Part shown: one piece after another, positions 584 through 3,562 of the stretch
How positions within the stretch are numbered: the first letter of the stretch is position 1
Layout: every line of letters starts with the position of its first letter
IMG/VR virus record: IMGVR_UViG_3300030108_001120
Location: 1-55,190 of that record
DNA length: 55,190 nucleotides
Strand: one strand, 5' to 3'
From: a virus
Notes under the pieces: model-generated
The model's database searches: none
The model's input: the letters and a program-made list of their open reading frames with translations, nothing else
Told to the model about the DNA's origin: nothing
Translations under genes and position numbers: made by a program

Positions 584-622
584 TTTATTATATTATCATT
601 TAGTGTTAATATTATATTTGTA
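584..622 (-). promoter_or_regulatory. 39-bp repeated element, copy 1
   Basis: Read on the minus strand it is TACAAA, 19 bases, then the core GATAATATAATAAA. The same 14-bp core and exactly the same 39-bp length occur five times in 3.6 kb, each time upstream of a minus-strand gene. This copy precedes the 79-aa gene by 9 bases. It is probably a phage-specific promoter or operator, but which of the two is not shown by the sequence. Confidence 0.65.
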
Positions 623-644
623 AACATGACATTTTGTCATATAG

Positions 645-716
645 TTGCGGGAGTAGGAGTCGAACCTACGACCTCGAGGTTATGAGCCTCGCGAGCTACC
701 ACTGCTCTATCCCGCT
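645..716 (-). tRNA. tRNA-Met (CAU), initiator-like
   Basis: Folds as a standard cloverleaf on the minus strand: acceptor GCGGGA/UCCCGC, D-arm AGCA/AGCU, anticodon stem CGAGG/CCUCG with loop CUCAUAA (anticodon at 682-684), and T-arm with loop TTCGACT. Position 1 (A) and position 72 (A) do not pair, a hallmark of initiator tRNAs. However, the anticodon stem lacks the usual run of three G-C pairs, so initiator identity is likely rather than certain, and tRNA-Ile2 (lysidine type) cannot be excluded. CCA is not encoded. It lies directly downstream, on the same strand, of the structured stretch 717-1089. Confidence 0.93.
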
Positions 717-1089
717 ATTTCTTGGGTGGTATCATGCATAATACCCACGCTTTCTGGGGCTAAGTAAACCAAGTCATTGACTCTAATACACTTCCGTACG
801 TTCGCTTATACCCGTCGGTAGTCGACACCACATAGTGTCCTGTATTCTCGGCTTCATAACCGTCCTTCGTGTTTTAACCCATAATATTTTACCCGGCTGT
901 CACTACGACTGGCTTTGTACAACTGATACCTCAAGGAAGCCAAGGCGTCGATTTACTGTTAAGCCGGGTTTTGTAACTCATTGATACCTAAAAACTTAGC
1001 AACTGCACCCGTTTACACCTAATGCCTAATGACTAGGTGTACGCTGCCTCGACTTACGTTGCCTTGTTACGGTTAGCTATTCAGTTATG
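717..1089 (-). ncRNA. Candidate structured non-coding RNA beside tRNA
   Basis: About 370 bases with no credible gene and clearly higher G+C than the flanking AT-rich genes. On the minus strand several strong helices can be drawn. A perfect 8-bp hairpin is 1014-1021/1034-1041. A perfect 8-bp long-range helix is 891-898/962-969, with a nested perfect 6-bp helix 910-915/937-942. There is a GACACT/GGTGTC hairpin near 827-842 and an imperfect hairpin near 726-748. It sits between a compact tRNA-like hairpin (1090-1136) and a tRNA gene. Large ornate phage RNAs (GOLLD, ROOL) are known to occur beside tRNAs, but I cannot show homology. A conserved RNA is inferred, not demonstrated. Confidence 0.45.
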
Positions 1090-1136
1090 TAGTGGTGGCA
1101 GGAGTCGAACCTGCACCTTAGTACCGTAGCACCACT
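1090..1136 (-). other. tRNA-like acceptor/T-arm minihelix 1
   Basis: On the minus strand: AGTGGTG, a 15-base connector, then T-stem GCAGG, T-loop TTCGACT, CCTGC, then CACCACT and an A in the discriminator position. The 7-bp acceptor stem and 5-bp T-stem are both perfect. D and anticodon arms are absent. The loop is identical to that of the tRNA-Met at 645-716. This is the minimal shape recognised by RNase P and other tRNA-processing enzymes. It could be a processing signal, part of the adjacent structured RNA, or a remnant of a tRNA. Confidence 0.55.
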
Positions 1137-1171
1137 CTAATTAACCTACTCGTCTAACTATCTATCAATGA

Positions 1172-1357
1172 TTACAAGTGCCATTCTTTTAATAGTTTAA
1201 TGGCTGATGCTTTTATTTTAGTGAAAGAACTATCATCTAACATATCTGTATAGTCTATTATTCTATTCAATGCTCTTTCAACTTCAGTGCATAGATAAGC
1301 TGATTCTCTATCAATCATTTCATCTTGCATTTGCTCATATGCTTTTTTACTATCCAT
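1172..1357 (-). CDS. Hypothetical protein, 61 aa
   Basis: Begins MDSKKAYEQMQDEMIDRESA. Charged and predicted helical throughout, no family recognised. The next gene upstream ends one base before this ATG, so the two are probably co-transcribed. Its stop is followed, 35 bases on, by the tRNA-like minihelix 1. Confidence 0.55.
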   Translation of the reverse strand: MDSKKAYEQMQDEMIDRESAYLCTEVERALNRIIDYTDMLDDSSFTKIKASAIKLLKEWHL

Positions 1358-1358
1358 A

Positions 1359-1544
1359 TTATTTAATTATTTTCTTATTTCTTGTTAACATCCACTCTAT
1401 ATTTGCTGGATTATGACCTAAGTCAATTAGATATTCTTCTATTTTCTCACTATCACGAGTAAATACATCATATCTATATACAAAACCTATTTCAAAATCA
1501 AGTACAAATACGTAGTTTCGTTTATTTATCATTTTATTTTCCAT
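1359..1544 (-). CDS. Hypothetical protein, 61 aa
   Basis: Starts MENKMINKRNYVFVLDFEIG. A mix of short hydrophobic strands and charged segments, with a basic tail (NKKIIK). No recognised domain. The start overlaps the end of the upstream TM protein by 11 bases. Confidence 0.55.
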   Translation of the reverse strand: MENKMINKRNYVFVLDFEIGFVYRYDVFTRDSEKIEEYLIDLGHNPANIEWMLTRNKKIIK

Positions 1545-1755
1545 ATATTATTCTTTCTAAGTCGTCTTTTTTATAATTTCTTTTAGTCGGGTAGTTTAAA
1601 TACCTCGTTTCTATGTCTCTAGCTTTTAATATATCTTCGTTCCATGTTCTCTGATCTATTTTGTAGAACGTGTAGAACACGCCACAAAAGAAACAAATAC
1701 CACATATTATTGTAAGATATAATAATCTTTCTAATTTATTTACTTGCGTCTCCAT
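1534..1755 (-). CDS. Single-TM hypothetical protein, 73 aa
   Basis: A hydrophobic segment at about residues 11-31 (LLYLTIICGICFFCGVFYTF) is followed by a charged C-terminal tail, giving a small membrane protein with a cytoplasmic or periplasmic tail. Its ATG overlaps the 3' end of the zinc-ribbon gene by 16 bases. Function unknown; small early phage membrane proteins often act on host envelope or defence, but nothing here shows that. Confidence 0.6.
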   Translation of the reverse strand: METQVNKLERLLYLTIICGICFFCGVFYTFYKIDQRTWNEDILKARDIETRYLNYPTKRNYKKDDLERIIYGK

Positions 1756-1928
1756 GATTTGTGTACTGCTGCGGATAGTTCTTGCGATACTACTTGTACC
1801 TCAAGAACTTGTTTGTTTGCTATGATAGGTATATAGCTGACTTTTTTAGTCGAACTACAACTTACACAGTTGTTATAACCTAGCTCGATACGAACTGGGT
1901 GAACAGTATTTCCACATTTACAGTACAT
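1740..1928 (-). CDS. Small zinc-ribbon-like protein, 62 aa
   Basis: Cys3, Cys5, Cys21 and Cys24 form a CxC...CxxC arrangement consistent with a small zinc ribbon (starts MYCKCGNTVHPVRIELGYNN). Such modules in phages often bind nucleic acid or RNA polymerase, but that is inference. The ATG is only 2 bases from the core of copy 2 of the 39-bp element, so it is the promoter-proximal gene of the 1740-1172 unit. Confidence 0.6.
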   Translation of the reverse strand: MYCKCGNTVHPVRIELGYNNCVSCSSTKKVSYIPIIANKQVLEVQVVSQELSAAVHKSWRRK

Positions 1929-1930
1929 TT

Positions 1931-1969
1931 TTTATTATATTATCAATTACTTACGTTATTTTGTTTGTA
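1931..1969 (-). promoter_or_regulatory. 39-bp repeated element, copy 2
   Basis: Minus strand TACAAA-N19-GATAATATAATAAA, identical core and spacing to the other four copies. It ends 2 bases before the ATG of the zinc-ribbon protein and overlaps the 3' end (1956-1958) of the 32-codon gene upstream. Confidence 0.65.
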
Positions 1970-2639: not shown

Positions 2640-2651
2640 AGTTATAAGTTT

Positions 2652-2876
2652 TTAGTCGCCAGTATAATTATCCCATCTAGTTTTACTAGCATAATATTCA
2701 GCGATAGATGCTCGCTCTAATTCTTTTAGTTCTTTGTAATAATCACTGTTTTGTAATCTATCATCTCGCCAAGCTTCAACATCTTCACGATTAGGTGATG
2801 AGAATCTGTGATAATCTATCTCACAATGATACCAGTTACATTGGAACTTCTCGTTATAAGTAGTTGTTATTCGCAT
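2652..2876 (-). CDS. Hypothetical protein, 74 aa
   Basis: Starts MRITTTYNEKFQCNWYHCEI. Tyr/Trp/Arg-rich with two cysteines near the N-terminus, ends TRWDNYTGD. No family recognised. One base separates its start from the stop of the 39-aa gene upstream. Confidence 0.55.
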   Translation of the reverse strand: MRITTTYNEKFQCNWYHCEIDYHRFSSPNREDVEAWRDDRLQNSDYYKELKELERASIAEYYASKTRWDNYTGD

Positions 2877-2877
2877 T

Positions 2878-2997
2878 TTAATTAGTTTTATTATAGATTT
2901 CTAATACTTGTTGTCTTTGATTTTTAGTTAATAAAAATGGAGACTTGTTAAATAGTTTTTGAGAAATCATTATTATTTGAGTTTGGTTATAAATCAT
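2878..2997 (-). CDS. Small hypothetical protein, 39 aa
   Basis: ATG at 2995-2997, 3 bases from the core of element copy 4. The peptide begins MIYNQTQIIMISQKLFNKSP. Too short to assign; the promoter-element position and abutment to the next gene are the main support. Confidence 0.45.
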   Translation of the reverse strand: MIYNQTQIIMISQKLFNKSPFLLTKNQRQQVLEIYNKTN

Positions 2998-3000
2998 AGT

Positions 3001-3039
3001 TTTATTATATTATCAATTAGTGATTATATTAAGTTTGTA
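3001..3039 (-). promoter_or_regulatory. 39-bp repeated element, copy 4
   Basis: Minus strand TACAAA-N19-GATAATATAATAAA. It fills exactly the space between the stop of the 44-aa membrane protein (3040) and the ATG of the 39-aa protein (2997). Confidence 0.65.
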
Positions 3040-3174
3040 CTACCATCCACCAAATGTTATAGTTGGATTGTTAAACATTAAGTGATATGAAATCATTAGT
3101 ATTCCAGATATTGCAAGAGTTGCTAATGAATATAATAGTGTATTGATTGCGTAGTGTTGAAATTTTCTTTTCAT
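3040..3174 (-). CDS. Small single-TM protein, 44 aa
   Basis: ATG at 3172-3174. A basic N-terminus (MKRKFQHYA) leads into one hydrophobic segment (INTLLYSLATLAISGILMIS) and a short polar tail, giving a small inner-membrane protein. No family recognised. Confidence 0.5.
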   Translation of the reverse strand: MKRKFQHYAINTLLYSLATLAISGILMISYHLMFNNPTITFGGW

Positions 3175-3195
3175 TTTATAATATTTAAGTGTTAG

Positions 3196-3239
3196 TTCTA
3201 GTGTGGGTAGTCGAAACCCACCAGTGCTCCAAGACTAGA
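3196..3239 (-). other. tRNA-like acceptor/T-arm minihelix 2
   Basis: On the minus strand: TCTAGTC, a 12-base connector, T-stem TGGGT, loop TTCGACT, ACCCA, then CACTAGA and an A. Six of the seven acceptor pairs form, the T-stem is perfect, and the loop is identical to that of minihelix 1 and of the tRNA-Met. There is no room for D or anticodon arms. It begins 15 bases after the stop of the 76-aa gene, i.e. in its 3' untranslated region. Confidence 0.5.
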
Positions 3240-3254
3240 TTTTGAGAGTGTTGA

Positions 3255-3485
3255 TTACTTTACTTCAACAACACTTCTCACTTTTACAGGTACATTAGTT
3301 GAACTAGTGTATGATTTGTACTTTAACCAGCAAGGTAATTTTGTAAGTGTATCTTTCATAATTTCAAACACTTTGTCATGATTGTAAGTGCATGATTTAC
3401 CATTTTTGAAATTAACAGTGATAGTTTGATTTTTACCTACTAGTGATTGTCTAAGAACAAATCTTTTTGAATTTAATTGAGTCAT
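3255..3485 (-). CDS. Hypothetical protein, 76 aa
   Basis: Starts MTQLNSKRFVLRQSLVGKNQ, beta-rich and basic, ends VPVKVRSVVEVK. No family recognised. It is the first gene of the minus-strand module next to the divergent region; element copy 5 lies 38 bases upstream of its ATG. Confidence 0.55.
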   Translation of the reverse strand: MTQLNSKRFVLRQSLVGKNQTITVNFKNGKSCTYNHDKVFEIMKDTLTKLPCWLKYKSYTSSTNVPVKVRSVVEVK

Positions 3486-3523
3486 AATTTTAATTTTAAG
3501 TTATTATTATTAAGTTATTTAAG

Positions 3524-3562
3524 TTTATTATATTATCATTAAGTTATAATATTTTATTTGTA
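3524..3562 (-). promoter_or_regulatory. 39-bp repeated element, copy 5
   Basis: Same TACAAA-N19-GATAATATAATAAA arrangement on the minus strand. This copy is 38 bases from the next ATG, farther than the other four, leaving room for a real leader. Confidence 0.65.

Follow-up and report, generated by a model that had tools for sequence, protein, structure and literature searches.

A 39-bp element that recurs on one strand of an uncultured phage genome is, in our estimate with a probability of about 0.86, a promoter at which host core RNA polymerase is guided by a sigma-70-family factor that the phage encodes. A preliminary description of the same DNA had left the choice between a promoter for a novel polymerase or a novel sigma factor and a shared operator or translation element. 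The sigma factor is favored by a start signature at motif base 38 and by the presence of a sigma gene in sufficiently complete motif genomes, and the polymerase finds no support, as no T7-like RNA polymerase was detected and a giant structural-region protein has no RNA polymerase match. In the proposed mechanism, the viral sigma factor would direct host RNA polymerase to these sites, presumably by binding the element. GATAATA (−12 to −6) would serve as the −10 element, AATACGA (−28 to −22) and TACAAA (−37 to −32) would be upstream elements at fixed spacing, and transcription would begin at motif base 38. Small genes on the early strand would be expressed from these sites, and in some relatives the sigma gene as well. 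A large group of uncultured Bacteroidetes-type viruses very probably uses the element as its private promoter.

Results

Copies of the Element in the Window

The window, i.e., the whole stretch of 55,190 nucleotides that was analyzed (IMG/VR record IMGVR_UViG_3300030108_001120), carries five 39-bp copies on the minus strand with 0 mismatches, exactly as first described. Shuffled window sequence gave a mean of 0.13 matches and never reached five, and a search of the whole record (56,049 bases, at most 3 mismatches) returned the same five copies and no others. An ATG follows 2, 3, 5, and 9 bases past the 3′ end in four copies, again in line with the preliminary description, and 38 bases downstream in the fifth.

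When +1 positions are assigned by the rule obtained from 1,031 pooled sites (see below), copy 1 (584–622) has a predicted +1 at 585 and would give an 11-nt mRNA leader before the ATG at 574 of gene 335–574 (79 aa, minus strand), which has 85% identical orthologues in the related contigs L354 and L355. Copy 2 (1931–1969; predicted +1 at 1932) would give a 4-nt leader before the ATG at 1928 of gene 1740–1928 (62 aa), copy 3 (2502–2540; predicted +1 at 2503) a 7-nt leader before the ATG at 2496 of gene 2284–2496 (70 aa), and copy 4 (3001–3039; predicted +1 at 3002) a 5-nt leader before the ATG at 2997 of a 39-aa ORF. For copy 5 (3524–3562; predicted +1 at 3525), a 40-nt leader would precede the ATG at 3485 of gene 3255–3485, a 76-aa protein whose family is present in all 10 motif genomes compared. 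A sixth, weaker copy, missed at first, lies at 3686–3724 on the minus strand and reads TACAAA CTTAATATTC TTATACAAT GATAATTTAAATGT, with GATAATT at the −10 position and a predicted +1 G at 3687; this variant is also present in L356 and L357, the window's two closest relatives.

A stretch of about 370 bp within 716–1170 has no ORF of at least 50 aa. It lies between a tRNA-Met (644–716) and a sub-threshold tRNA-like match of 22 bits (1090–1136), and leaves room for a structured RNA or for tRNAs that have degenerated.

A Fixed, Strand-Specific Motif in Uncultured Viruses

The search of related phages that had been suggested at the outset located the element in more than 100 uncultured viral contigs (IMG/VR scan, at least 120 stretches). 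The pooled consensus of 1,031 sites, for which GATAATA was the search anchor, is TACAAA-N3-AATACGA-N9-GATAATA with fixed spacing. Alignment of the instances places a third conserved part inside what had been described as a merely similar 19-base middle (TACAAA-ctA-AATACGA-N9-GATAATA); this second box, AATACGA, is degenerate in the window copies. Likewise, the 14-bp core described as identical is so within this genome, but what the 1,031 sites have in common is GATAATA.

Ten genomes were covered over all or nearly all of their length, and in these the high-scoring sites are confined to one strand, opposite to the structural genes, and number 4 to 9 per genome, with the exception of 17 in one 129-kb contig. 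On the early strand of these genomes, 64 of 71 TACAAA–GATAATA pairs within 44 bp have a gap of 19 and a single pair has a gap of 18; on the late strand, no pair has a gap of 19. Same-strand matches around sigma genes outnumber opposite-strand matches 332 to 1, and shifting the spacing by 1–3 bases leaves 0–3 matches. No clear late-strand promoter emerged from a word search.

The 129-kb contig (IMGVR_UViG_3300047157_000162, 129,537 bp) seems to consist of two related phage genomes joined, with two portals, two sigma genes, and two motif clusters. Two viral contigs considered as motif carriers, L062 and L091, were rejected as chance matches, having neither second box, sigma gene, nor related terminase. 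Literature searches, with subscription papers and preprints outside their range, returned no description of the motif.

Cellular genomes are nearly devoid of the motif, with four stretches in 257 Gb, one of which, a MAG contig holding four copies, has the appearance of a phage fragment. In one chromosome of the Flavobacteriales (L185, CALSQD010000002.1, 323–356), a lone perfect motif precedes a cellular gene and adjoins parA/parB-like genes. Another lone perfect motif, just before an ORF, is on a 64-kb contig (QCKH01000009.1, 11100–11131) from the genome of a single Prochlorococcus cell, in which no close sigma homologue was found.

A Start Signature at Motif Base 38

The 1,031 sites are non-identical and were chosen without regard to bases 33–39, the region in which a start signature appears. 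Of the 900 sites at which no ATG begins at base 38, 885 have a purine (A or G) in this position, and G hardly ever occurs at base 37. The first ATG, which ranges over bases 32–128, falls exactly at base 38 in 131 of the 1,031 sites (32 of 191 downstream gene families), compared with two sites each at bases 37 and 39. Because the purine and the ATG spike coincide at base 38, we infer that transcription starts at this base, one before the 3′ end of the 39-bp unit, and that GATAAT (bases 26–31) occupies −12 to −7. The original suggestion of a start near the 3′ end of the core would thus be right. Bacterial −10 elements normally lie at −12 to −7, and a purine at base 38 fits a −10 element about six bases upstream of the start. 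As read from these base frequencies, a non-G followed by a purine start, with GATAAT so placed, is the layout of sigma-dependent promoters in bacteria. Leaderless mRNAs would produce such an ATG spike, and elsewhere in the clade many mRNAs are predicted to start at the A of AUG. The first ATG is at base 32, upstream of the predicted +1, at ten sites, of which one gene family accounts for 7.

Promoter-to-ATG distances peak at bases 38, 48–49, and 58–60; the interval, about 10.5 bases, is similar to the helical repeat of DNA.

These frequencies also bear on two other readings. A shared operator or an mRNA/translation element, an option raised in the preliminary description, would account for the proximity of start codons and for the A-rich stretch that follows the motif. 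However, as the first ATG is spread so widely, a translation element would need to act at variable distance, and the concentration of 131 first ATGs at base 38 as well as the two boxes, fixed spacing, and purine at +1 have the form of a promoter; of the explanations weighed here, this is the least probable. A promoter for a single-subunit phage RNA polymerase of the T7 type, which would place +1 at base 26, the G of GATAATA, would be in keeping with the rigid spacing, which is typical of such promoters, and with AATACGA-N9-G, which agrees in letters and spacing with the T7 promoter from −16 to +1. Against it, none of 55 records contains an RNA_pol domain (PF00940), for which the T7 control scores 1e-109, the expected conservation from −9 to −1 is missing, and the purine/ATG signature sits at base 38, 12 bases downstream of base 26. 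With the domain absent and the start signature elsewhere, the T7-like polymerase was discarded as a candidate, and we regard a promoter of this kind as highly improbable.

A Phage-Encoded Sigma Factor Accompanies the Motif

The early region of one terminally redundant motif genome (G033) encodes, at 15003–15761, a 252-aa protein in which sigma regions 2 and 4 are recognizable, and sigma-70-family proteins of about 250 aa occur in the motif contigs. The protein matches the PHROGs family phrog_351, "RNA polymerase sigma factor" (E = 3e-19), and a profile of ten homologues matches FliA over residues 27–244, nearly the full length (E = 3e-10), as well as SigA/RpoD in region 2. Pfam matches to regions 2 and 4 fall below the curated cut-offs. 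An AlphaFold model, of medium confidence, is structurally most similar to sigma factors, with low TM-scores. A tblastn search of 50,697 phage records with the sigma protein gave no match.

Of the 59 records searched, 37 have the sigma gene, among them every one of the 24 genuine motif records that are 58 kb or longer, a set that excludes two chance matches lacking the second box. In the reverse test, all 52 sigma loci with at least 7 kb of upstream DNA had a same-strand motif. The window's own 56-kb record has no sigma gene, presumably because the contig ends at its left side just short of the expected locus; in L354 and L355 the gene lies 3.4–3.9 kb downstream of the orthologue of gene 335–574, and by synteny with these two contigs the window phage probably encodes the factor as well. 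In L312, L313, L314, L321, and L344, the sigma gene starts 37–40 bp after the start of a motif copy, and such sites at the sigma gene itself would imply positive feedback. Motif and sigma gene could also be co-inherited markers of a clade with no functional link.

Most sigma genes are immediately preceded by a gene for a 206-aa HTH protein (e.g., L161, 14377–15006); an ORF of this size stands beside 72 of 78 sigma genes, one of them spurious. It is a possible co-regulator. As a reader of the TACAAA box it was rejected: the window-like L349/L354 uses TACAAA, no HTH protein was found there, and the box therefore does not need it.

Concerted Switching of the −35 Box

Within a genome, the −35 box is alike at nearly all sites, and in most genomes it is TACAAA. 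Contigs that first seemed to lack the motif carry it with a different upstream box at essentially every site. Five contigs use TCGAA[A/T]; their sigma factors form one supported clade (98/95), and the HTH protein is absent from all five. L289 uses TATARG, and L321 uses TGCAAA. L355 shares genes with the window, one at 85% identity, yet has TCGAAA/ACGAAA at essentially every site where the window has TACAAA. Genome-wide switching is what would be expected if a trans-acting phage factor reads the box. Lineages that use different −35 boxes have almost the same recognition helix in sigma region 4, and no column in this helix convincingly tracks the box.

Box switching weighs against a promoter for a host alternative sigma factor (e.g., ECF) borrowed by the phages. 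A borrowed factor would explain the bacterial-type −10 geometry and the intact site in the Flavobacteriales chromosome, but the −35 box switches between phage lineages, once together with a supported phage sigma clade, and the motif is scarce in 257 Gb of cellular genomes, where one of the four stretches is phage-like. We give this alternative very little credence.

Relatives of the Window Phage and the Use of Host-Type Promoters

Window genes encode a terminase, a portal, GroEL, ribonucleotide reductase, and a muzzle-like structural protein (33302–34843, plus strand; Pfam crAss_MUZ_C, E = 2.1e-13), whose domain, by profile similarity, links the window phage to Crassvirales-type phages. Terminase and portal are most similar to those of MW202828, a circular Manatee Spring podovirus, and of cultured phages of Flavobacterium (elemo), Cellulophaga (phi18:3, phi38:1), Maribacter (Panino), and Tenacibaculum. 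Six of these relatives, cultured or deposited, were scanned and have neither motif nor sigma gene; T7 also has no sigma gene.

As the preliminary description held, the host-type TAnnTTTG promoter does not fit the gene direction of the elements: the Bacteroidetes sigma-A promoter (TAnnTTTG at −7, TTTG near −33) is absent in that direction. By a simple pattern scan, intergenic TTG-N17-22-TAnnTTTG with a start codon at most 200 bp downstream occurs once in ten motif genomes. Several TTG-N17-22-TAnnTTTG sites are present in Panino, and others in elemo, MW202828, and phi38:1.

The kinship with Crassvirales raises the alternative of a crAss/N4-type promoter read by a virion-packaged RNA polymerase located in the giant protein encoded at 37744–46908, behind the muzzle gene. 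Crassvirales are described as using a packaged RNA polymerase for early genes (PMC10136315), and in the window a muzzle domain is present and the giant gene is at the position expected for cargo proteins. The giant protein, however, has no RNA polymerase match in PHROGs, Pfam, or PDB; neither the whole sequence nor a profile of its conserved C-terminus gave any polymerase similarity, although a very divergent enzyme could escape sequence searches, and as a candidate polymerase it was set aside. In addition, the 830 C-terminal residues, which are conserved, include a HAD-like DFDDT motif, conservation among motif genomes does not extend to the N-terminal two thirds, and the start signature fits a bacterial −10 element. 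A virion polymerase promoter is thus very unlikely. The protein itself comprises 3,054 aa; the C-terminal motif reads DFDDT...LTARP...DD, and the remainder diverges fast between relatives.

Discussion

Phage sigma factors with private promoters are already known; the novelty lies in the lineage, the element, the predicted leaderless starts, and the box switching, in phages that are related to Crassvirales. T4 gp55 and SPO1 gp28/gp33-34 redirect host RNA polymerase to an AT-rich −10-type element. They differ from the present system in temporal class and promoter sequence, and the likeness drawn here is one of role. Phages phiEco32 and 7-11 encode a distant sigma-70-family factor of their own and carry phage-specific promoters before phage genes, with the motif tAATGTAtA (PMC4331800). 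That motif differs from the one described here, and their promoters serve middle and late structural genes, whereas ours are found only on the non-structural strand, with fixed upstream boxes, predicted leaderless starts, and host-type promoters seemingly largely missing.

Bacteroidetes housekeeping promoters have TTTG around −33 and TAnnTTTG around −7, and in Bacteroides thetaiotaomicron only about 3.7% of 5′ UTRs are shorter than 10 nt (PMC7366714). The phage element resembles these promoters in having two boxes upstream of the start and, presumably, in being used by the host core enzyme; the box sequences differ. Crassvirales phages such as phi14:2 package a virion RNA polymerase for early genes (PMC10136315). 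The window phage shares with them a related structural module, the muzzle domain, and Bacteroidetes-type relatives, but no virion polymerase was detected here and the sigma factor appears to take its role. An extension of the sigma factor model, speculative and rather unlikely as a whole, is that a Crassvirales-related lineage dropped both the virion polymerase and host sigma-A promoters and would express its early genes only through its own, possibly packaged, sigma factor, with many leaderless mRNAs and repeated box switching.

The proposed system stands in contrast to that of crAss-like relatives, which rely on an RNA polymerase packaged in the virion. It also raises the question of where the first sigma molecules come from in a phage with no recognizable host promoters. 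The element, a small orthogonal promoter of about 39 bp with predicted leaderless output, would provide natural sigma/promoter pairs with differing −35 boxes, and a promoter code at base resolution for a large phage group that has no member among deposited phage genomes.
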